A DNA stretch of 64,000 nt. It comes from Pleurocapsa minor HA4230-MV1 (GTDB lineage: Bacteria > Cyanobacteriota > Cyanobacteriia > Cyanobacteriales > Xenococcaceae). The notes beneath the pieces are model-generated. The model was not told the DNA's origin. It saw nothing but the letters and a program-made list of their open reading frames with translations, and did no database searches. Below, piece after piece: positions 3,569 through 15,545 of the stretch (the first letter of the stretch is position 1; the number at the start of each line of letters is the position of its first letter). The position numbers and the translations under genes were made by a program. The stretch is from positions 1-64,000 of the forward strand of contig JAHHHZ010000013.1 in the NCBI GenBank assembly GCA_019359095.1. Direction: 5' to 3'.

Positions 3569-4159
3569 TTAGGCAATTTGTGGCAACACATCTTGAAACA
3601 AGATTTGTTGTAATTGCGCACCTTCGGATCGACTCCAATCTTGTGCTAATTCCGCCATCATTGTATTGGTTGCCGTTAGCACTACGCCTTCGCGCTCCAT
3701 GCGTCGTCTCGACATTTCTTCTGAAAGCTCAAAAGGTGATCCTGACGCATCCATTACAGCTTGAACTTGATAGCCCTCTTGGCACGCACTGATTGCAGGG
3801 AAAACTAAACAAACATCGGTAGTCACTCCCGCCATAATCAAATTTTTGCGTCTTGTGGCTTCAACGGCTGCTTTGAAGTTTGGATCATTCCAAGCGTTGA
3901 CAATACCTGCGCGTTTGATGCGAGTTTCAAAAGCTGCTGGCAGAATCTCAGCTAATTCTGGTAAGAGCGCACCCTGAATATTTTCTTCTTGACTACTAGT
4001 AAGAATCACGGGAATGTTGAGAATTTTCGCTGTCTTTGCCAGAGCTAGAGTATTTCGTTTAACCACTTCTAGAGGTATGTTGTGGATCAATTTCATTGTG
4101 CCAATCTGGTGATCGATTAATAACAATGCTGAGTTTTCCGCTGTGAAGATACTACTCAT
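3569..4159 (-). CDS. isochorismatase-family cysteine hydrolase (YcaC-like)
   Basis: A 196-residue isochorismatase-fold protein with the expected Asp16 (LLLIDHQ), Lys82 (RIKRAG) and Cys117 (GVTTDVCLVF) catalytic triad. The length and sequence resemble the YcaC subgroup, whose substrates are unknown, rather than true isochorismatases or nicotinamidases. It is first in the minus-strand operon and diverges from the HxlR gene across a 138-base region holding a palindromic operator. Expression is therefore probably controlled by that regulator. Family call is strong; reaction is unknown. Confidence 0.8.
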   Translation of the reverse strand: MSSIFTAENSALLLIDHQIGTMKLIHNIPLEVVKRNTLALAKTAKILNIPVILTSSQEENIQGALLPELAEILPAAFETRIKRAGIVNAWNDPNFKAAVEATRRKNLIMAGVTTDVCLVFPAISACQEGYQVQAVMDASGSPFELSEEMSRRRMEREGVVLTATNTMMAELAQDWSRSEGAQLQQILFQDVLPQIA

Positions 4160-4261
4160 TTCCTTCTCCTATCGGTTTTGTATTTTGTGTTTTGCAAATG
4201 ATTGAATGTTTTGATTATCGATTCTTAACAGTTAAAAGCGCAAGTACGTACATAAAAATGC

Positions 4262-4285
4262 TATACATACATATTTGTATGTATA
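4262..4285. promoter_or_regulatory. palindromic operator, probable HxlR site
   Basis: TATACATACA and TGTATGTATA are perfect 10-base arms around a 4-base centre, 12 bases before the HxlR start codon and about 100 before the divergent operon. Just upstream, AGTACGTACAT at about 4240-4252 looks like a related half site. HxlR proteins bind such palindromes as dimers, often sensing electrophiles or oxidants. Confidence 0.75.
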
Positions 4286-4297
4286 AACTTCCCAGCT

Positions 4298-4672
4298 ATG
4301 ACTATCAAAGGCTCAAATAATGTTTTAGATTCACATCCTTATCTGCGTCAGACTCTCGATTTGGTCGCGGATAAGTGGGTTGTTGCAGCTTTGTATATTC
4401 TTTCTCACGGGACAAAACGTTATGGAGAAATGCAAAGGGAAATCGGCAATATCTCACAGCGAATGCTGACTCGGACACTGAGAGATTTGGAACGAAATGG
4501 GCTAGTGCATCGCCAGGTATATCCTGTTGTACCGCCAATGGTGGAGTATTCTTTGACTCCGCTGGGTGAAACGCTCAATGAAGTATTGAAAGCTCTTTGT
4601 GATTGGTCAACGGATAATTTTCAGCAAGTGGAAACTGCAAGAGCAATTTATGATGAGGCAAAAAAGCAATGA
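4298..4672 (+). CDS. HxlR-family transcriptional regulator
   Basis: A 124-residue winged-helix MarR/HxlR-type regulator with the family core from DLVADKWVVAALYILSHG through GLVHRQVYPVVPPMVEYSL. It lacks the N-terminal cysteine used by redox-sensing HypR/YodB types: no cysteine is seen before the helix-turn-helix, and the only one is near the C-terminus (ALCDWS). It is transcribed divergently from the isochorismatase/YciI/DUF1772 genes and has its own palindrome at the promoter, suggesting autoregulation plus control of that operon. A truncated paralogue lies at 1982-2293. Confidence 0.85.
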   Translation: MTIKGSNNVLDSHPYLRQTLDLVADKWVVAALYILSHGTKRYGEMQREIGNISQRMLTRTLRDLERNGLVHRQVYPVVPPMVEYSLTPLGETLNEVLKALCDWSTDNFQQVETARAIYDEAKKQ

Positions 4673-4683
4673 AGTTATGGTGA

Positions 4684-4733
4684 AGCGATCGCATTTTCCT
4701 ATAGTAACTACTTGACTTGACCAAAACGGCGAT
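4684..4733. repeat. direct repeat copy 1 (duplicate of uppS 3' end)
   Basis: Fifty bases match 6442-6491 at 48 positions. Copy 2 includes the last codons and stop of uppS plus 24 bases beyond it. This copy sits 11 bases after the HxlR stop with no uppS gene attached, so it looks like a duplicated junction. Confidence 0.85.
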
Positions 4734-4981
4734 TCAATTTTTCCTACTTTCTCATTCTTGACGATACATTCGGCGATTTTGGCTAGTATATAATGCCTTT
4801 CATTTGTCTATATTTAGGTAATACCACATATTTCTTAATTCATGCTTTTGTTTGCCTTGGCACAAAGATCATGATATACGTAGTGAATTATGTTTAACCT
4901 AACATTTTCCTGAGTCATTTTAACGAGTGCATAGTGATGAGATAATTCCAACATAAAATTTATGAAAGGTTGGCTGCACCA
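4734..4981. other. intergenic region before the DUF3500 gene
   Basis: Together with 4673-4733 this is about 310 bases without a gene. Apart from the 50-bp repeat it holds AT-rich DNA with no repeat or hairpin I can support. It should contain the promoter of the DUF3500 gene. Confidence 0.5.
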
Positions 4982-6319
4982 ATGAAAAAAAAGCTTTTCC
5001 CAAAATTGACTGCTCTACTTTGCTTAACCGCTGTGCTATCAATGATTGGTAGTGATCGATTAGAAGAACAGTTCAACCGCTCTAGCTATTCTGCCCAGCA
5101 AGCTATTGACACTAGTTCTCAGTCAACTGTTCTTCCAAAAACTCGTAGCGTTTTCAATAATTCTAATCTGGCACTAAGACAATCGCTTCAAGATGTGCGT
5201 TATCTAGAACTTAGCGAATCAATTAAAAGTTTTTTAGCAACGCTTGACAAAACCCAACGCGCCGCTGTAGTTGTTCCCTTTGATAATCCCTTTCGCACCC
5301 GATCCTTTTGTTATGTACTCGCCCGATGTAAAGACGAGTTTGTCGGCTTAAAAATGTCAGCGCTCAATTCAACGCAAAAAATAGCGTTAAACAACCTGTT
5401 GATGAAAAGCTTTAGTGGTTCTGGCTATTCGAGAGCTATTCAAACAATGAATCGCGAATGGCTTGTCGAAGAGATGGAAAATGCCCATCGCGCTGATCCT
5501 AAGAAATATCCCACAGTGGGGAGTCCTTTGGTTCCTGAATGGACGCCACCGCCAAAGCGCGCTGCTCCTGATTACTATATCGCTTTCTTTGGGCAGCCTG
5601 CCTCCATGCACCCCTGGGGGCTACGCTTTGAAGGTCATCATCTTAGTTTGAATCTGACTTTTGGGGGTGAAGGTTCGCAGCATAAGGTAGGGACTTCACC
5701 AATGTTTTTTGGTTCTAGTCCAATGATCGTTCCAGCAAGTCCAAAAACAGCAGAAGGGCAGACTGCCTATCCTCGATGGTACCAGGAAGAAGGTCAGCAA
5801 TCGCTCAATCGCGAAGCTTGGCTAGCCCGTTCATTCTTAAATGCTTTAGATGCTTCAACTCTCAAGCCTGGCAAGTGGTCAGCGTTGCCCGATGTTGTTT
5901 TAGCTGGCGGTACAGATGTTCCGCTAGACGCCTCAAGTTATCTAAAGAATGAGAAGGTGGGCATCGCCGTTGCCAATTTAAGTCCTCTGCAACAAGACTT
6001 ACTTTATGAATTTGCCCTGGAGTTTTTACAATTACAGGCAAGCCAAAATATCAATATAGATGACTTTAAGGCCAACTTAGCTAACTCACGCGTTTGGTGG
6101 TTTGGTAATAAGAAAGATGATCGAGCGGCTCTTTATTTTCGTATTCAGAGCGATCGCTATTTGATTGAGCTGTTACAGTCAGACACTTTTGGCGTCTCCA
6201 GTGAAGTAGAATCCAACCACGTACATGCCTCATTTAGAGACTTAACTAATGATTGGGATCATAACTCTTTAGGGGAGCATTTACGCCAGCATCACCATGA
6301 CGAAGCACTTATTCGTTAA
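4982..6319 (+). CDS. secreted DUF3500-family protein
   Basis: The ATG at 4982 is preferred over an in-frame TTG at 4970 because an AAAGG lies about 12 bases upstream and the product then starts with a clean signal peptide (MKKKLFPKL plus a hydrophobic run to about residue 24). The 445-residue protein has DUF3500 hallmarks: YYIAFFGQP, WGLRFEGHHLSLNLTFGG and a C-terminal histidine cluster (LRQHHHDEALIR). The function of DUF3500 is not established; its conserved histidines suggest a metal site. The gene is bracketed by the 50-bp direct repeat, a sign of insertion or duplication. Confidence 0.8.
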   Translation: MKKKLFPKLTALLCLTAVLSMIGSDRLEEQFNRSSYSAQQAIDTSSQSTVLPKTRSVFNNSNLALRQSLQDVRYLELSESIKSFLATLDKTQRAAVVVPFDNPFRTRSFCYVLARCKDEFVGLKMSALNSTQKIALNNLLMKSFSGSGYSRAIQTMNREWLVEEMENAHRADPKKYPTVGSPLVPEWTPPPKRAAPDYYIAFFGQPASMHPWGLRFEGHHLSLNLTFGGEGSQHKVGTSPMFFGSSPMIVPASPKTAEGQTAYPRWYQEEGQQSLNREAWLARSFLNALDASTLKPGKWSALPDVVLAGGTDVPLDASSYLKNEKVGIAVANLSPLQQDLLYEFALEFLQLQASQNINIDDFKANLANSRVWWFGNKKDDRAALYFRIQSDRYLIELLQSDTFGVSSEVESNHVHASFRDLTNDWDHNSLGEHLRQHHHDEALIR

Positions 6320-6491: not shown

Positions 6492-7221
6492 CGCGCTGTT
6501 GAAAAGCGACTATAGCTCGATCAAACTGCTCATGATTAAAATCTGGCCAGAGAGTATCGGTCACATAGATTTCAGTGTAGGCTAGCTGCCACAGCATGAA
6601 GTTACTCAAGCGCATTTCCCCACTGGTACGAATCAAGAGATCGGGGTCGGGACTAGCAGCAGTATAGAGATGTTGAGAGATAATTTGGTCATTAATAGAG
6701 TCGGCAGATAGTTCACCCTGCTGGACTTTTTCAGCGATCGCTTTGCAGGCATGAATCATTTCGTGACGACTACCGTAGTTGATTGCCACATTAAAAAATA
6801 CGCCTTGATTATTTTTTGTCCGCTCCATTGAGCGATACATTTCCTGTTGTAGGGAAGAGGGTAAAGGCGTTAAATCTCCAATAAAATTAATGCAGACTTC
6901 TTCTGCTTCCATCTCCTTTAATTCTTTCTGCAACAGCCTTTCAAATAAGCTCATCAAGAAGTTAACTTCTCCTGTGGGGCGACCCCAATTTTCCGTCGAA
7001 AAAGCATAAGCAGTTAAAGTTTTTACCCCTAGATCTTTACAGTAACGCAACATCTCCTTCAGGGCATTAGCACCCCTGCGATGTCCTTCAATGCGCGGTA
7101 AACCCCTTTGTGTTGCCCAGCGACCATTACCATCCATAATTACAGCAACGTGGTTCGGCAATTTAGCTTGGTTAGTTTGGTTAGTTTGGGTTAATAGATT
7201 AGTTACTAATTGAGCTGTCAT
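6466..7221 (-). CDS. uppS: isoprenyl transferase (undecaprenyl diphosphate synthase)
   Basis: A 251-residue cis-prenyltransferase that condenses isopentenyl diphosphate onto farnesyl diphosphate to make the C55 carrier lipid for peptidoglycan and surface glycans. The active-site signature [13 protein letters not shown] is near residue 24, and the C-terminal region has the conserved [18 protein letters not shown]. It is cytoplasmic or peripheral to the membrane. It reads leftward after the unknown diiron protein with a 49-base gap. The first about 22 residues are rich in T, N and Q and may be variable. Confidence 0.95.
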
Positions 7222-7270
7222 AGAAATTATTTTAAGTTAAGGACGATTAAACTAAATAAGAAGTTGCTAC

Positions 7271-8272
7271 TTAGAAAATGATTACTTTAGGCTGATTGTA
7301 TTCAACACTATTGTTCCCGAAAAAATCTGGAGTCGCACAGCACGAGTGCAAATATTCTGGAGTTAATTGACTACTCCAATACCACATTCGTTTTAAAACC
7401 CAAATAAAAGTGTAAATCAATTCGCCTCGACATAAGACTGACCAAGATTGCCAATTTAAAATAGACATCATACGTTGAAACGTAGATTTGATCTCCGCTG
7501 GAGATTTAATTGTTGATTCATAGGATACAGGCAAGATAGTATGAATTTGGCTAAGAAGATAGCAAATTAACTGTTCTGTACCATCGGGATAGAGCCACAT
7601 TCCCATTCCCCAGAATTTTGCCAGGTGATTAACTTCGTCCTGTAACAATTCACTCAAGACTTGTTGGGTTGTTCCTGTTGTGTGAGACATCAGCCACAGG
7701 TATAAACAGGCTGCACCATATTCTGTGATCACCCGATGTAAACCGTGTTGATATAAATCTTGGTAGGGATTTGTCCAGGCTTGATAGCTTTTGGCAGTTT
7801 GTACTTGAGGGGTAATTGATTCAGTTGCTAGCATTTGATAGAGCTTGGTTAAAGCTGGAGTGTGTTGACGCTCTTCTTTTTCCCACAAGCCTAATTCAAT
7901 GATTGTGCCATCATCTGCGACTATTCCCCCCACTAACCGCGCCATACTGGGATGAATTGGTTCAAGATACTGTCTACTAGTTTGGGTATATTCTCTGATG
8001 GGTGCTTCCGTGTCCAACGCACCTTTAATAATCGACAAAAAAATATCCAATTCTAGACCAATAACTTGTTCTGGATGGATATCTTGCCAATTGATGTTAG
8101 ACCATTTACGGGGTTGTGGATTGAGAAACTGCTGGGGTAAATCCTCTAGGCGATCGCCTAATTTTTGACAACTTAAATATCGCTCGATTAAATAATTAAT
8201 CCTAACTTTGGTCTGAAAAAAATTAGGACGAAAACAAACTTCTCCCGCTAAATCGATTGCTGGTTGATACAT
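7271..8272 (-). CDS. ferritin-like diiron protein, unknown function
   Basis: A 333-residue helical protein with two carboxylate/histidine motifs, E134xxH137 in EKEERQHT and E213xxH216 in LQDEVNHL, plus Glu184 between them. This spacing fits a four-helix diiron fold related to soluble acyl-ACP desaturases and other ferritin-like oxidases. It has no signal peptide and only weakly hydrophobic segments. It lies upstream of uppS on the same strand and could share its transcript. The substrate is not predictable, and a fatty-acyl or aldehyde oxidation role would be a guess. Confidence 0.6.
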   Translation of the reverse strand: MYQPAIDLAGEVCFRPNFFQTKVRINYLIERYLSCQKLGDRLEDLPQQFLNPQPRKWSNINWQDIHPEQVIGLELDIFLSIIKGALDTEAPIREYTQTSRQYLEPIHPSMARLVGGIVADDGTIIELGLWEKEERQHTPALTKLYQMLATESITPQVQTAKSYQAWTNPYQDLYQHGLHRVITEYGAACLYLWLMSHTTGTTQQVLSELLQDEVNHLAKFWGMGMWLYPDGTEQLICYLLSQIHTILPVSYESTIKSPAEIKSTFQRMMSILNWQSWSVLCRGELIYTFIWVLKRMWYWSSQLTPEYLHSCCATPDFFGNNSVEYNQPKVIIF

Positions 8273-8722: not shown

Positions 8723-8929
8723 ATGGAAAACTCAAATAGCTGTCCTTGTTGCTCCACACCATTACTACATCATTTTGGTAATAATCGCGAGTATTGGTTC
8801 TGCCGACACTGCTGGGCAGAAATGCCAAATGTAGAAATGCTCAAAGACACAAAACATCAGTCAGCTTTCAAAATTATTAATTTATCAACTAGCTTTTCTA
8901 GATTGAAAAAACCTGTCTTAGCAAGTTAG
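8723..8929 (+). CDS. small zinc-ribbon protein
   Basis: A 68-residue protein whose N-terminal 40 residues hold two cysteine pairs, CPCC and CRHC, separated by about 19 residues, followed by WAEMPN. This is a typical single zinc ribbon. I recall similar short proteins in many cyanobacteria, with no known function. It precedes the KaiA-like gene by 41 bases on the same strand and is probably cotranscribed with it. The C-terminal 30 residues are basic and probably unstructured. Confidence 0.7.
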   Translation: MENSNSCPCCSTPLLHHFGNNREYWFCRHCWAEMPNVEMLKDTKHQSAFKIINLSTSFSRLKKPVLAS

Positions 8930-8970
8930 CAATTATTCATGTTTAAAATCCTGGAGGAAAAGCTAAGTTC

Positions 8971-9426
8971 ATGCATAGAACTATCAATGAATCACAAATT
9001 GAAAGACATCAACAGCAGCAAAATCGTTTAAATTCTAAGCTAAATGAACGATTAGAATATTCAGATGTCTACTTCAACCGAGATTCCCAAGGATTTTTTA
9101 AACATCTGTCTGTTTGCGATCAAAAACAATTACTAGAAAGGCTAAAATTAATCTACTCTCAAATTCTCTTTGATTATTTTTCTCCTGAAAACAATACGAA
9201 TAGTTTAATAGATCGTTTTGTAGAAGAAGCTTTCTTTGTCAACTTACCAATGAATAAAGTTGTCGAGATTCACCTAGAATTAATTGAAAACTTAGAACGC
9301 CAACTAAGATTTGAAGGACTGCATATTGACTATCTTAGTGACTTTCGCCTCACTCTAATTGATGTCATTGCTCATTTAGGCGAAATGTATCGTAGTGTAA
9401 TTTGTGAAAAATGTTTACAAGATTGA
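8971..9426 (+). CDS. KaiA C-terminal-domain protein, stand-alone
   Basis: A 151-residue protein. Residues about 50-145 closely resemble the KaiC-binding, dimerising C-terminal domain of KaiA: LLERLKLIYSQILFDYF, VVEIHLELIENLERQL and RLTLIDVIAHLGEMYR match the family from memory. The N-terminal pseudo-receiver domain of long KaiA is absent and replaced by a glutamine-rich 45-residue leader, as in short KaiA of filamentous cyanobacteria. kaiB and kaiC are not adjacent; neighbours are a zinc ribbon and Hsp20. A clear GGAGGAAAAG ribbon of purines serves as ribosome binding site. It may be the main KaiA relocated, or a divergent paralogue. Confidence 0.7.
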   Translation: MHRTINESQIERHQQQQNRLNSKLNERLEYSDVYFNRDSQGFFKHLSVCDQKQLLERLKLIYSQILFDYFSPENNTNSLIDRFVEEAFFVNLPMNKVVEIHLELIENLERQLRFEGLHIDYLSDFRLTLIDVIAHLGEMYRSVICEKCLQD

Positions 9427-9555
9427 TTTTAAATTACTGAGAGAAATTTAGTATTTTTGTCTTCACAAATTCTTCAAACTTTATTGCTAACCTATCAATA
9501 CCAAAGCAAAATTAATTTGATAAATTACTTAGATTAAGAGTAGGAGATGAGTGTA

Positions 9556-9888
9556 ATGGAAGAAGCTAGTAAAACTTGGTGTCCAGCGATTGAGTTGAAT
9601 GAGACTGAAAAAGATTTAATTCTCAAGGCAGAAATCCCTGGGGTTGAAATCAAACACCTAAACATCAGCGCCGATCCAGAATTAATTTCAATTTCGGGAC
9701 TTCATAACCATCACAAGTCCTCAACTGAACAAGAATTAATTCCTTCTCAACTTCACTATGGGCAGCTTGACTGTAGTGTTCCCCTGCCAAAATCAGTTCA
9801 AGTAAACTACGTTAGAGCTGAATTGATTGATGGAGTTTTAACGATCACTATGCCGAAAGTAAATACAGCCAACTTTGTCAGAAGCTAG
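9556..9888 (+). CDS. small heat shock protein, Hsp20/alpha-crystallin family
   Basis: Start set at the second ATG (9556), because the AGGAG at 9542-9546 abuts the first ATG (9547) but is ideally spaced from the second. The 110-residue product is nearly all alpha-crystallin domain: ILKAEIPGVEIKHLNI, a central ISISG, then the RAELIDGVLTITMPK motif. N- and C-terminal extensions are very short, and the IXI oligomerisation motif is not obvious. It would act as an ATP-independent holdase. The motif TCACAAATTCTTCAAA lies 93 bases upstream and also before the zinc-ribbon/KaiA pair. Confidence 0.85.
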   Translation: MEEASKTWCPAIELNETEKDLILKAEIPGVEIKHLNISADPELISISGLHNHHKSSTEQELIPSQLHYGQLDCSVPLPKSVQVNYVRAELIDGVLTITMPKVNTANFVRS

Positions 9889-10721: not shown

Positions 10722-11084
10722 CTAACTACTAACCCACTTCAAAGCTTGCTCTGTTTCATCTGGGGTAAAATGTTTGACCTCAATACTTGAAAATAGAGTA
10801 TTGCCTAGTGCAGCTAAACCTTCTAGCCATCGATGATCGCTTACGATCGCTTCTTTTTCAAAATCTTTTAAATGTTGCAAGCTGAATTTGAGGTCTTTAA
10901 TAAAAGCGACCAAAGACATTCCTGACCAATTATTGATCTCAGCATAAATTCTTAACTTCTCACCAGTATTGAGCCTTTTTTCAATCAGCTCGACGATGCG
11001 ATCGAGATCTTCTGCGTCGATCCAGCCATCAATTTCTAAACCGATTATATGGTCTGGTTTATGGGGAATAAGTTTGATAGTCAT
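10722..11084 (-). CDS. SpoIIAA-like (STAS/DUF3478) protein
   Basis: A 120-residue single-domain protein of the SpoIIAA-like/DUF3478 type: HIIGLEIDGWIDAEDLDRIV at the start, LRIYAEINNWSGM in the middle and EAIVSDHRWLEGLAALG in the second half. Family members resemble STAS/SEC14 folds and often bind small hydrophobic ligands; cellular roles are mostly unknown. It precedes no partner kinase. Universal stress protein genes lie just upstream on the same strand (32-base gap), so a shared stress-related transcript is plausible. Confidence 0.8.
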   Translation of the reverse strand: MTIKLIPHKPDHIIGLEIDGWIDAEDLDRIVELIEKRLNTGEKLRIYAEINNWSGMSLVAFIKDLKFSLQHLKDFEKEAIVSDHRWLEGLAALGNTLFSSIEVKHFTPDETEQALKWVSS

Positions 11085-11115
11085 AACTTGATTTTCCTAG
11101 GTTAGGGAAATAAAA

Positions 11116-11661
11116 TCAGGCATAAATTTGATTTTTAATGCCTTTTGGTAAGGTTGAATTTTCTAAAACAGGAGCCTGAGCAAGTAAGATCGAGCAAGGA
11201 GAATGATGGATGACATAGTTACTGACACTACCCAAAAACATTGATTTTAAGCCTTGATGCCCTCGTTTACCCATGACTATTACATCCGCGTGGCAAGAAT
11301 GGGCGAACTCACAGATAGTCGAACTGGGATGTCCTGTAATCTGACTAAATTCAGTTGAGACTCCTGCTGCGATCGCTTTTTCGGTAAAAGAACGCAATAA
11401 CTTGATGCCTTTTTGTTGAAAATTAAAGCATTCTTGGTCGTATATTTCGTTTGCTTGGCGCATGATCCAAGAATCGACATGAATACAACGATCTTTATGG
11501 CGTATTAGATAGGGAGGCATGGTCGGATCGACTTCATCAACAGACAAAACATGCAATAAAATCAAATTTCCTTGGTTGGTTTTGGCTAAAGATAAAGCTG
11601 TCTCAAAAACTTGTTTGCTGCCTGCTGAATAATCAATTGCCACTAAAATTTTCTTGAACAT
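11116..11661 (-). CDS. universal stress protein (UspA family), single domain
   Basis: The start is taken at the ATG at 11659-11661 (MFKKILVAIDYSAGSK), because that is where the Usp fold begins; an upstream ATG adds 16 unrelated residues. The 181-residue product has the ATP-type phosphate loop near the C-terminus (VMGKRGHQGLKSMFLGSVSN). It is cytoplasmic. It is the middle gene of a usp(tandem)-usp-SpoIIAA run, with a 58-base gap to the upstream gene. Its Usp sequence is more divergent than the two halves of the neighbouring tandem protein are from each other. Confidence 0.9.
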   Translation of the reverse strand: MFKKILVAIDYSAGSKQVFETALSLAKTNQGNLILLHVLSVDEVDPTMPPYLIRHKDRCIHVDSWIMRQANEIYDQECFNFQQKGIKLLRSFTEKAIAAGVSTEFSQITGHPSSTICEFAHSCHADVIVMGKRGHQGLKSMFLGSVSNYVIHHSPCSILLAQAPVLENSTLPKGIKNQIYA

Positions 11662-11719
11662 TTTACTAACCTTTGCTAACGGTAAATTAAGAAGTAAACC
11701 AGATATCAACGAACATTAT

Positions 11720-12814
11720 TTACTGTTTAAAAGTCTGAAGTTTTTGCTTTGGATCTGCTTTTGTTGATTTAGCCATTGCTTGAGCAAATTTAGAATCAAG
11801 GGGAGTTCGGACGATTAGAACTGAACAGGGTGCATGATGAGTCACATAATTACTGACGCTACCGAGAAACATTTCTTTCAAGCCTGTTAGTCCCCGACTG
11901 CCAATGAGAATCAAATCTGCTGACCAAGTACTTGCTAATTCGCAAATCGCCCGTCCTGGATTACCAGTTAACTGCGTAAATTCAGTGTTGATTCCTGCTG
12001 CGGTGGCTTCTTTTACTTTTGCTGACCAGAAATTAATTATTTGTTGTTTATAATCAGCAAATTTTTTCTTAGATAATTCGTAATCGTAACTATCTAAAAC
12101 TGGATAATAGTCATAGTTAGATATGACGGGATAACTTGGTTCGTCTTCAGCTAAAACATTGAGTAGCATTAAGTCTGCTCCCACAGTTTTTGCTAAAGAT
12201 GCTGCCGAATCAAAAACCAATTGATTTGCTTGAGAATAATCTACTGCTACTAAAATTTTGTTAATCATTAGAACACCTCTTCTTAACTGAATATCTGCTG
12301 CTTCTTCATCTGAAAAAGTTTGGTTAGATTGAGAATTAGAATTAATGTCAGCACGAATAATCAAAACTGAGCAGGGTGCGTGATGGGTTACATAGTTGCT
12401 TACGCTGCCGAGAAACATTTCTTTCAAGCCTGTTAGTCCCCGACTGCCAATGAGAATTAAATCTGCTGACCAACTGCTTGCCAATTCGCAAATCATTCGT
12501 CCTGGATTTCCTCCCAACTGAGTAAATTCAGTTTGGACTCCTGCTGCTGTTGCTTCTCTAGTCAGATTTCTAAGAAATTCAATTCCATGTTGTTCGTACT
12601 TAGCATATTCTTTTTGATATGTTTCATAATTGCGGTTTTCCACAATGGGATAGTAAGTATAAGCTGGGGCGAGAGGATGATCCTCTTCTTTGACAGATAA
12701 AACGTGGAGCAACATTAACTTTGCCCCTGTTATTTTTGCCCAAGATACTGCTGTGCTAAAGACAGACTTGCTGTTTTGAGAACGGTCTACTGCTATCAGA
12801 ATTTTGTTAATCAT
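11720..12814 (-). CDS. tandem universal stress protein (two UspA domains)
   Basis: The ATG at 12812-12814 has an ideal AAGGAG nine bases upstream, so it is preferred over the ATG at 12823. The 364-residue product holds two complete Usp domains, each starting MINKIL(I/V)AVD and ending with LILIGSRGLTGLKEMFLGSV and the G-2x-G-9x-G(S/T)-type nucleotide loop. DNA identity between the loop regions of the halves is very high. The second domain begins with its own ATG (12268) preceded by AGAGGTG, so this looks like two tandem genes fused after loss of the stop between them. Confidence 0.92.
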   Translation of the reverse strand: MINKILIAVDRSQNSKSVFSTAVSWAKITGAKLMLLHVLSVKEEDHPLAPAYTYYPIVENRNYETYQKEYAKYEQHGIEFLRNLTREATAAGVQTEFTQLGGNPGRMICELASSWSADLILIGSRGLTGLKEMFLGSVSNYVTHHAPCSVLIIRADINSNSQSNQTFSDEEAADIQLRRGVLMINKILVAVDYSQANQLVFDSAASLAKTVGADLMLLNVLAEDEPSYPVISNYDYYPVLDSYDYELSKKKFADYKQQIINFWSAKVKEATAAGINTEFTQLTGNPGRAICELASTWSADLILIGSRGLTGLKEMFLGSVSNYVTHHAPCSVLIVRTPLDSKFAQAMAKSTKADPKQKLQTFKQ

Positions 12815-12893
12815 GAGCGGCAACTCCTTGTTTGTAAGTAGTTAGTAGTTAGTAGATAAGAGTCAAATGCTGACTTCTAGCAACCAATGCCAA

Positions 12894-15425
12894 CTAATTA
12901 ATATTTCCTTCAACTTCGGCTATTTTTAACCTAGTTTTAAGTATCGAATCGGGATTGAGACTGATAGAATCAATTCCCTGCGTGACTAAAAATTCGGCAA
13001 ATTCGGGATAATCGCTGGGTGCTTGACCGCAGATGCCAATTTTACGTCCTTTCAGTTTGGCGATCTCGATCGCCATAGTCAGCATGGCTCTTACAGCAGG
13101 GTTACGTTCGTCAAATAGATGTGCCACCAAAGCTGAATCGCGATCGAGTCCCAAAGTGAGCTGAGTTAGATCATTTGAGCCGATCGAAAAACCATCAAAG
13201 ACTTCGCTAAATTCGGCAGCCAGCATAACGTTGCTAGGAATTTCGCACATGACGTATACTTGCAAGCCATTTTCACCTTTCACTAGTCCGTGTTTAGCCA
13301 TTTCTTCTAGCACTTTACGTCCTTCATCGGGAGTACGACAGAAGGGGATCATGGGAATGACGTTAGTTAAGCCCATATCATCTCGCACCCGCTTGAATGC
13401 CTGACATTCGAGCGCAAAAGCAGCACGATACTGGGGATCGTAATAGCGACTTGCACCCCGCCAGCCCAACATCGGATTTTCTTCTTGGGGTTCAAACTGC
13501 TTTCCACCCAACAGATTCGCATATTCGTTACTCTTGAAGTCTGACATCCTCACAATTACAGGCTTGGGATAGAATGCTGCGGCGATGGTAGCAATACCCC
13601 GCGTTAGTTTATCGACAAAGAAATCAGGCTTGTTGGGATAGTGAATTGTTTGACGAACAATCGCCATTTTTTCGGCAGGATCTTTGAGCTGGTCAAATTT
13701 AATTAAAGCTAAAGGATGAATTTTAATTTGGTTGGCAATTATAAACTCAAGCCTTGTCAAACCCACACCGTCACAGGGCAAAGCTGACAACCCAAAGGCT
13801 GATTCAGGATCGCCTACGTTCATGAGAATTTGGGTTTTGGTTTGAGGCAGATGATCTAGCTGAATTGATTCCACAGTAAACGGAATTAAACCAGCGTAAA
13901 CTTTACCTTGTTCGCCGTCAGCGCAAGATACGGTGACATCCTGTCCTGTTTGAATCTTATTAGTCGCATTACCACAGCCGACGATCGCAGGGATACCCAT
14001 TTCACGGGCAATGATGGCAGCATGACAGGTTCTACCACCCTGGTTAGTGACGATCGCACTGGCTTGTTTCATGATCGGTTCCCAGTCGGGATCGGTTTTA
14101 TTGGTAACTAATACTTCTCCTGGTTGAAACTGGTCGATATCACTGGCATTTAAAATAATTCTGGCAACGCCTGCACCAATTTTTTCCCCCACCGATCTGC
14201 CTGTGGTTAGTAGGGGCGTTTCGTGAAACGCCCTTTCCTGAAACGACCCCACGTTCAATTTATATGTCTGCAATACATTGTTCGTTTTCTGGGATTGGAC
14301 GGTTTCGGGGCGGGCTTGAACAATAAATAATTCTCCTGTTAGCCCATCTTTTGCCCACTCGATATCCATTGGCGTGTAAACATTACGCACCTGGGAATAA
14401 TGATCTTCGATCTGACAAGCCCATTGAGCTAATTGCAGAATTTCAGCCTCATTGAGTGCATATTTAGCTCTTTGTAAGTGAGATGTGGGTACGTTTTTGG
14501 TTAGTTTACTACCGCCTACGTCGTACACCAGCTTAATTTCTTTACTACCAAGACGCCGATCCAGAATGGGACGATAGCCTTGTTTGAGGGTTGGTTTAAA
14601 AACAATATATTCATCAGGATTTACTGCACCCTGAACAACATTTTCTCCCAAACCGTATGCCGCAGTAATTAACGCTGCATCTTTAAAACCTGTTTCCGTA
14701 TCAATCGAGAACATGACACCAGAAGTTGCCAAATCTGAACGCACCATCTTTTGCACACCAACAGAAAGAGCTACTTCAAAATGATCGAAGCCTCTAATTG
14801 TGCGGTAGGAAATAGCGCGGTCAGTATATAGAGAAGCAAAGCATTTGTGACAGGCTTCGAGGACGCACTGAAGATCGTGAACGTTGAGATAGGTTTCTTG
14901 CTGTCCTGCAAAACTAGCGTCGGGTAAATCTTCAGCCGTGGCAGAGGAACGAACTGCTACATCCACATTATAGGTATACTGTTTGCAAACTTCTTTTTCT
15001 GCTCCTGTAAATTGGTCACAGTAGGAAAAGTCGATTTTGTATTGCTCACATAGCTGGCTGTAGGCTGCGGTAATCGCTGTATCTAATTCTGGGGGAAATG
15101 GGGTATTGAGAATTAATGCTCTGGCTTGTTGACCACGCGATCGCAAGCTGTCTAAATTTTCTACGTCTAGATCGGCAAATAGCTGACGCAGCTTGGTTTC
15201 TAATCCTGCCTGTTCGATGAAGTAGCGATAGGCATAGGCAGTAGTCGCAAAACCTCCTGGTACGTTAATTCCTTGAGGTGTTAACTGCTGAATCATTTCC
15301 CCCAACGAGGCATTTTTTCCACCCACAAGAGCAACATCTGACATACCCACATCTTCAAACCAGAGAATCAAAGCTTTTTGTTTATCTTGTATGGTTCTGC
15401 TGCGACGATCTGCTGTGACGACCAT
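12894..15425 (-). CDS. ppsA: phosphoenolpyruvate synthase
   Basis: The enzyme makes phosphoenolpyruvate from pyruvate and ATP (gluconeogenic direction). The ATG at 15423-15425 has a GGGAGA upstream; a longer frame to 15470 runs into repeat-like DNA. Domains in order: N-terminal ATP-grasp PEP/pyruvate-binding domain (VGGKNASLGEM, VDVAVRSSATAEDLPDASFA), swivelling domain with catalytic His in GGRTCHAAIIAREMGIP, and C-terminal PEP-utilisers barrel (IGSNDLTQLTLGLDRDS). At 843 residues it is slightly long because a hairpin repeat has inserted in frame in the linker before TTGRSVGEKIGAG. Confidence 0.95.
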   Translation of the reverse strand: MVVTADRRSRTIQDKQKALILWFEDVGMSDVALVGGKNASLGEMIQQLTPQGINVPGGFATTAYAYRYFIEQAGLETKLRQLFADLDVENLDSLRSRGQQARALILNTPFPPELDTAITAAYSQLCEQYKIDFSYCDQFTGAEKEVCKQYTYNVDVAVRSSATAEDLPDASFAGQQETYLNVHDLQCVLEACHKCFASLYTDRAISYRTIRGFDHFEVALSVGVQKMVRSDLATSGVMFSIDTETGFKDAALITAAYGLGENVVQGAVNPDEYIVFKPTLKQGYRPILDRRLGSKEIKLVYDVGGSKLTKNVPTSHLQRAKYALNEAEILQLAQWACQIEDHYSQVRNVYTPMDIEWAKDGLTGELFIVQARPETVQSQKTNNVLQTYKLNVGSFQERAFHETPLLTTGRSVGEKIGAGVARIILNASDIDQFQPGEVLVTNKTDPDWEPIMKQASAIVTNQGGRTCHAAIIAREMGIPAIVGCGNATNKIQTGQDVTVSCADGEQGKVYAGLIPFTVESIQLDHLPQTKTQILMNVGDPESAFGLSALPCDGVGLTRLEFIIANQIKIHPLALIKFDQLKDPAEKMAIVRQTIHYPNKPDFFVDKLTRGIATIAAAFYPKPVIVRMSDFKSNEYANLLGGKQFEPQEENPMLGWRGASRYYDPQYRAAFALECQAFKRVRDDMGLTNVIPMIPFCRTPDEGRKVLEEMAKHGLVKGENGLQVYVMCEIPSNVMLAAEFSEVFDGFSIGSNDLTQLTLGLDRDSALVAHLFDERNPAVRAMLTMAIEIAKLKGRKIGICGQAPSDYPEFAEFLVTQGIDSISLNPDSILKTRLKIAEVEGNIN
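14210..14250. repeat. GTAGGGGCG hairpin repeat inside ppsA
   Basis: GGGGCGTTTC (14213-14222) pairs with GAAACGCCC (14225-14233), and a second imperfect arm GAAACGACCCC follows at 14240-14250. It encodes about 14 extra residues (GSFQERAFHETPL region) in frame. Related hairpins with different inner sequence lie at 18055-18079 and 45051-45078. Confidence 0.75.
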
Positions 15426-15444
15426 AAATTCTACTTCTCCCTTT

Positions 15445-15545
15445 ATCAATGAGCAGTGAACATTGAACATTGAACAATTGATTAATCAGGTTTAAGACCT
15501 CTTTTCAACGATCAGTGATCAGCGATCATTGCTCACTGTTGAATT
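15445..15545. repeat. heptamer repeats and inverted GATC-rich repeats upstream of ppsA
   Basis: A short tandem array of ACATTGA-type heptamers is followed by overlapping GATCA/TGATC inverted repeats. It forms the leader region of ppsA on the minus strand. Confidence 0.5.

Follow-up and report, generated by a model that had tools for sequence, protein, structure and literature searches.

A second, stand-alone KaiA of Pleurocapsa minor HA4230-MV1 and related Xenococcaceae, a candidate activator of the clock kinase KaiC1

Results of our analysis indicate that a small gene of Pleurocapsa minor HA4230-MV1, designated here as kaiA2, encodes a stand-alone KaiA in a genome that also encodes a canonical, double-domain KaiA1, and suggest, with a probability that we estimate at about 0.6, that both proteins act on the same kinase, KaiC1. 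The gene is located in a stretch of 64,000 nucleotides at the start of contig JAHHHZ010000013.1, referred to below as the window. Its orthologues are found in ten genomes of the family Xenococcaceae, always together with kaiA1 and away from kaiBC.

Results

The kaiA2 gene and its product

The relevant features of the window are the following:

8723 to 8929, plus strand: gene of a small, 68-aa zinc-ribbon protein (ORF; CPCC ... CRxC (CxxC) motif)
8953 to 8957, plus strand: GGAGG ribosome-binding site of kaiA2, read directly in the sequence 13 nt 5' of the ATG at 8971
8971 to 9426, plus strand: kaiA2, encoding a 151-aa stand-alone KaiA linker and C-terminal (dimerisation/KaiC-binding) domain (Pfam, PDB, Foldseek, orthologues)
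9547 to 9888, plus strand: gene of an Hsp20/alpha-crystallin small heat-shock protein (Pfam HSP20, 40.4 bits)
10722 to 12823, minus strand: gene of a SpoIIAA-like protein (Pfam, 87.2 bits) and two universal-stress-protein genes (assigned by sequence reading)
12894 to 15470, minus strand: ppsA (assigned by sequence reading), after the universal-stress-protein and SpoIIAA-like genes

The product of kaiA2 matches the Pfam KaiA family (PF07688) with 134.9 bits (E 2e-39; the cut-off is 22.2 bits), its residues 26-145 corresponding to positions 1-120 of the 122 positions of the profile, and it matches solved KaiA chains of the PDB with E values as low as 3e-36. The domain is therefore that of KaiA, as an earlier, sequence-only reading of this DNA had proposed, and not of a different family. 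The same reading had noticed the lack of a pseudo-receiver, and indeed none is encoded in the 151-aa ORF, in which no second Pfam domain exceeds its cut-off and the KaiA domain begins at residue 26. The protein starts about 14 residues ahead of the linker, its N-terminus corresponding approximately to residue 137 in the canonical KaiA numbering.

The linker of KaiA2, NRLNSKLNERL, aligns without gaps to HRLSQKLKERL of the KaiA chain of 5jwr (pattern RLxxKLxERL). Of the 27 sites listed as universally conserved in KaiA (PMC8113500, Table 1), the window protein retains 26, among them the positions of KaiC binding and of the dimer interface, and the sole deviation, Y261F, concerns this species. Sites typical of KaiA2 are F244L and C273G, which are invariant in this group, and N227, found in nine of the ten proteins; G273 is present in some KaiA1 proteins, too. 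The glutamine-rich leader that had been pointed out as unusual is there in the window protein but is not a conserved feature, as the orthologues have fewer glutamines; canonical KaiA proteins have QQRRL at this place.

The AlphaFold model of KaiA2, built as a monomer from a shallow alignment of ten orthologues, is of moderate confidence (mean pLDDT 72.8), its confident part being the helices from about residue 41 onward. A Foldseek search with this model gave 13 matches below E 0.001, all of them to KaiA chains (the best to 5jwr, 2.5e-9, with 1r8j also among the top ones), and the predicted structure has the KaiA fold. A scan for promoters and terminators revealed nothing exceeding chance.

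Canonical clock genes in the same genome

The genome, which consists of 36 contigs (5.64 Mb) and is rated 100% complete, was searched throughout and contains two KaiA domains, that of KaiA2 and that of a 324-aa double-domain KaiA1. The latter is encoded on contig C26, other than that of the window, in a complete cluster in which kaiA1 is followed by kaiB and kaiC. In the neighbourhood of kaiA2 (5-15.5 kb of the window) no kaiB or kaiC was found, all KaiB and KaiC matches of this genome being located elsewhere (C26, C31, C17, C29, and C13:391,686). The earlier remark that neither gene is nearby thus holds for this interval, and has to be read in the context of the complete kaiABC. Since that cluster is intact on another contig, KaiA2 is a second KaiA, and neither a relocated clock component, as one of the earlier suggestions had it, nor simply the normal short KaiA of this organism. 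The other suggestion, an additional KaiA-like protein, is borne out by the presence of KaiA1, by the separate clade of KaiA2, and by its orthologues in ten genomes.

Besides a single KaiC1, this genome encodes a 481-aa protein of the KaiC2 type (27% identity) and has one weak third KaiC match; no KaiC3-like protein (~48% identity) was found in it. The KaiC2-type protein, whose gene adjoins that of a histidine kinase, stops at ILSGVPKSVNNEQ and is devoid of the KaiA-binding tail. The three KaiB domains of the genome are those of kaiB1, of a 398-aa frame (SasA by its size), and of an elongated, 253-aa KaiB encoded near queA-like and pilT-like genes (L181:5669-6430; C13, ~391.7 kb). In Nostocales, an elongated KaiB of 250 aa goes together with a truncated KaiA (PMC5520375). 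In Xenococcaceae, long KaiB frames accompany the normal KaiB in nearly all genomes regardless of the presence of KaiA2, and hence a link between KaiA2 and the elongated KaiB was rejected.

Distribution, constraint, and phylogeny

Orthologues of KaiA2 (58-72% identity over the matched stretch) were found in 10 of the 27 Xenococcaceae genomes and in none of the 364 other genomes of the order; the next best matches in these 391 genomes are ordinary KaiA1 proteins of at most 55% identity. In a phylum-wide sample of 386 genomes the KaiA2 profile scored above 230 bits only with the window genome and G019, the next score being 181 bits. The carriers, as assigned by the scan of GTDB genomes, are Xenococcaceae MAGs, Myxosarcina, Xenococcus, and Hyella patelloides LEGE 07179. 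All ten carriers encode a double-domain KaiA1, and in none of them is KaiA2 linked to kaiBC. Collections of plasmids and phages contained no match to KaiA2, and a transfer by either type of element was rejected on these grounds.

The KaiA2 proteins are intact in ten genomes of several genera and share more than 40 invariant alignment columns, while most differences between the orthologous genes fall at codon position 3 (29, 23, and 74 at positions 1, 2, and 3, respectively, between the window genome and G120). Judged from these patterns, the kaiA2 genes are under coding constraint. KaiA2 is dispensable, because it was not found in 17 of the 27 genomes of the family, and in one of these 17 (G136) the zinc-ribbon gene is followed by a degraded, 66-codon KaiA2 remnant.

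In the best tree, the ten KaiA2 domains form one clade (support 100/100) on a long branch, the single-domain KaiA proteins (sdKaiA) of two other families form a separate clade (100/100), and the Xenococcaceae KaiA1 proteins are likewise apart from KaiA2. With about 130 columns, which are too few, the AU test rejected neither a joint clade of KaiA2 and sdKaiA (p 0.68) nor one of KaiA2 and Xenococcaceae KaiA1 (p 0.32). The origin of KaiA2 as a recent copy of the lineage's own KaiA1 is not seen in the tree, though the latter p value has to be kept in mind.

A second short KaiA alongside a double-domain one was also noticed in a genome of another family of the order (G024; a 177-aa frame, L099:6326-6850). 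It is placed outside the KaiA2 clade, on a long branch, as an independent case, and a gene with two stretches of COP23 (circadian oscillating protein) precedes its own at a distance of about 700 nt. In three further genomes (G097, G063, and G030; loci L060, L061, and L058), for which no intact KaiA is listed, stops or frame changes disrupt the KaiA matches; kaiA is possibly broken or badly sequenced there.

The zinc-ribbon gene and other neighbours of kaiA2

The zinc-ribbon gene noticed earlier just upstream of kaiA2 is a real one: its 68-aa ORF is conserved in relatives, and cysteines C7, C9, C10, C27, and C30 are invariant in an alignment of ten of them, while no Pfam family exceeds its cut-off with this protein. 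It ends 41 nt upstream of the kaiA2 start, and the two genes are probably co-transcribed. A zinc ribbon is encoded upstream of KaiA2 on the same strand in seven of the ten genomes (G000, that of the window, and G019, G120, G163, G208, G150, and G176), a single small ORF separating the two genes in the last three; it is absent near KaiA2 in G228 and G253, and in G245 the contig ends too close to tell. The proposed pairing of the two genes is thus real, but a dedicated partnership does not follow from it, because the zinc-ribbon family is multicopy (about 1-7 copies per genome), its members occupy comparable positions without KaiA2 (G234, G249, G251, and G248), and a clade of the KaiA2-linked copies is rejected (AU p = 0.0003). 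The zinc ribbon is accordingly an inherited neighbour, often accompanying KaiA2, and no proven partner.

The zinc ribbon-KaiA2 pair is kept in differing surroundings, namely, a kinase module, an ATP synthase-type cluster (G208), and the vicinity of Hsp20 (the window). In four genomes (G163, G019, G176, and G150) it follows genes of a histidine kinase with the CBS-PAS-GAF-HisKA-HATPase architecture (1211-1455 aa) and of a CheY-like regulator, together with a gene of a DUF1830 protein that is missing only in G150. Close homologues of the regulator are encoded in nearly all Xenococcaceae genomes; that of the window genome is encoded on contig C19 and adjoins a kinase-sized ORF of 1461 aa. Clusters of the CBS-PAS-GAF histidine kinase, the CheY-like regulator, the DUF1830 protein (not in L101), and the zinc ribbon recur in Xenococcaceae with or without KaiA2 (L104, L105, L101, and L102).

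In G208 (L100:1-7936), genes of a DUF1830 protein, the zinc ribbon, an 85-aa protein, and KaiA2 are located between genes of ATP synthase-type subunits (alpha, 3867-5414; gamma-like, 6836-7723), from which they differ in strand, and a gamma-like gene flanks the zinc ribbon also in G246 and G247. The 515-aa gene of G208 encodes an alpha-type subunit of ATP synthase and no KaiC. Several relatives have a 511-aa gene downstream of KaiA2 whose length had suggested a KaiC, but its product carries an AAA_33 kinase domain.

Stress genes (Hsp20, SpoIIAA-like, universal stress proteins, and PpsA) are found beside KaiA2 in the window genome, in G228, and partly in G176. In the window, two universal-stress-protein genes (one of them two-domain), the SpoIIAA-like gene, and ppsA lie in a row on the minus strand (10722-15470) beside the Hsp20 gene, a set that resembles bacterial dormancy regulons. 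An Hsp20 that is 70% identical to the window copy flanks KaiA2 in G228 (L098), and orthologues of the SpoIIAA-like and universal-stress-protein neighbours adjoin KaiA2 in G228 and G176. The stress and the two-component neighbourhoods of KaiA2 differ between species.

Discussion

The probable target of KaiA2 and its possible mode of action

The only KaiC found in all ten KaiA2 genomes, and the sole KaiC match in G228, is KaiC1. Since it is present in each of these genomes with its C-terminal KaiA-binding tail (ISGSP...EK.ELSRI) intact, the most likely activity of KaiA2 would be the activation of KaiC1. The earlier suggestion of its acting on another KaiC is disfavoured, as no second KaiC is common to all KaiA2 genomes. 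What counts against KaiA2 as a KaiC1 activator are the family-specific changes of its domain (F244L, C273G, and N227, with Y261F in this species) and its long branch.

Canonical KaiA consists of the N-terminal domain (residues 1-129), the linker (130-179), and the C-terminal dimerisation domain (180-283), of which the last binds the C-terminal tail of KaiC and stimulates the kinase, while KaiB sequesters KaiA by binding its linker (PMC6378743). KaiA2, with its linker and C-terminal four-helix domain, would dimerise, grip the exposed C-terminal tails of KaiC, presumably KaiC1, and in this way stimulate KaiC autophosphorylation. In the simplest reading, it would do so without the redox input via the pseudo-receiver. 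Because this N-terminal module, which serves canonical KaiA as a quinone/redox input and amplitude module, is missing, the activity of KaiA2 may be set by the amount of protein made and not by redox state; because the KaiB-binding linker is kept, the KaiB-KaiC complex would remain able to silence KaiA2 at night. The expression of kaiA2 would be controlled apart from kaiABC, by its stress-gene setting or by the sensor histidine kinase/CheY-like regulator module, and such a pathway could therefore raise total KaiA activity via KaiA2, pushing KaiC1 toward the phosphorylated day state.

A different possibility, in our opinion an unlikely one, is that the partner of KaiA2 is either another KaiC (KaiC3 or one of the KaiC2 type) or no Kai protein at all but, for instance, the histidine kinase/CheY-like regulator or the zinc ribbon. 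It would agree with the linkage to kaiBC in 0 of 10 KaiA2 genomes, with the position of KaiA2 behind the histidine kinase, regulator, DUF1830, and zinc-ribbon genes in G163, G019, and G176 (in G150 without DUF1830), and with the precedent of KaiA3, a KaiA dedicated to another KaiC (PMC11372060). However, a KaiC3-like protein (~48% identity) is encoded in just two of the ten KaiA2 genomes, and genomes lacking KaiA2 have it as well, a distribution on which KaiC3 was rejected as the partner; the KaiC2-type protein of P. minor lacks the KaiA-binding tail, and the regulator, the kinase, and the zinc ribbon each occur without KaiA2.

The activation of KaiC1 by KaiA2 could be extended to a dedicated stress or two-component input to the main clock, which would override the redox-gated KaiA1 and hold KaiC1 phosphorylated in stress or dormancy, the histidine kinase and the stand-alone CheY-like receiver controlling the receiver-less KaiA in trans; we regard this extension as quite improbable. 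A role of KaiA2 mainly as a competitor or sink, which forms heterodimers with KaiA1 or occupies KaiB, shifting the phase or damping the clock, seems more doubtful still: the conserved dimer interface and KaiB-binding linker make heterodimers and KaiB binding plausible, but the KaiC-binding positions, which a pure sink would not need, are conserved as well. Least probable of all is a decaying paralogue without present function, as might be supposed from the patchy distribution, the remnant in G136, and the long branch, given the intact genes in several genera, the invariant columns, the prevalence of third-position substitutions, the conserved start, and the good ribosome-binding site.

The cyanobacterial clock is set by the ratio of KaiA to KaiC. 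If KaiA2 acts on KaiC1, the switching on of one small gene would enable a cell to push its post-translational clock, and stress signals could thereby act on the clock directly. A separately regulated KaiA that works on the same KaiC without the redox-sensing half would also be a natural experiment on the purpose of the pseudo-receiver. This reading is testable in vitro with four purified proteins.

Comparison with known types of KaiA

No genome with several kaiA copies was reported by Schmelling et al. 2017 (PMC5520375), and single-domain KaiA was found by Dvornyk and Mei 2021 only in Nostocales and Chroococcidiopsidales (PMC8113500). Our search of the open-licence literature found no earlier description of such an extra KaiA in Xenococcaceae.

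With canonical double-domain KaiA (that of S. elongatus, PDB 1r8j/4g86, and here kaiA1 on C26), KaiA2 has in common the C-terminal domain (PF07688), the KaiB-binding linker, and the KaiC-binding and dimerisation sites; it differs in the lack of the pseudo-receiver, the location outside the kaiABC operon, the F244L and C273G changes, and the coexistence with kaiA1. Similarly to KaiA2, sdKaiA of Nostocales and Chroococcidiopsidales (e.g., Anabaena KaiA, PDB 1r5q) lacks the pseudo-receiver and has N227 and P229. However, no further KaiA was found in the genomes with sdKaiA, while KaiA2 is accompanied by KaiA1, and the linker segment kept in KaiA2 is missing or diverged in sdKaiA. The engineered fragment of KaiA composed of the linker and C-terminal domain (the KaiA chain of 5jwr) is so close to KaiA2 in extent, with a gapless alignment from chain residue 12, that KaiA2 resembles its natural version, the difference being that kaiA2 occurs naturally and has a leader and regulation of its own.

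The KaiA3 protein of Synechocystis (Sll0485; PMC11372060) is, like KaiA2, an extra KaiA homologue in a genome with kaiA1B1C1. It was described by Koebler et al. 2024 as a receiver-KaiA chimera that works with KaiB3-KaiC3 (PMC11372060), and its genuine receiver may, according to a 2026 review, be served by an unknown kinase (PMC13421787). While KaiA3 is a fusion with a NarL-type receiver, is encoded next to kaiB3, and acts on KaiC3, KaiA2 consists of the bare domain and has no linkage to kaiB; the control of KaiA2 in trans by a kinase and a CheY-like receiver, if it takes place, would be a split equivalent of the receiver-KaiA fusion. KaiA2 represents a third arrangement, a bare KaiA in addition to a complete kaiABC, placed outside the sdKaiA clade in the best tree and unlike KaiA3.
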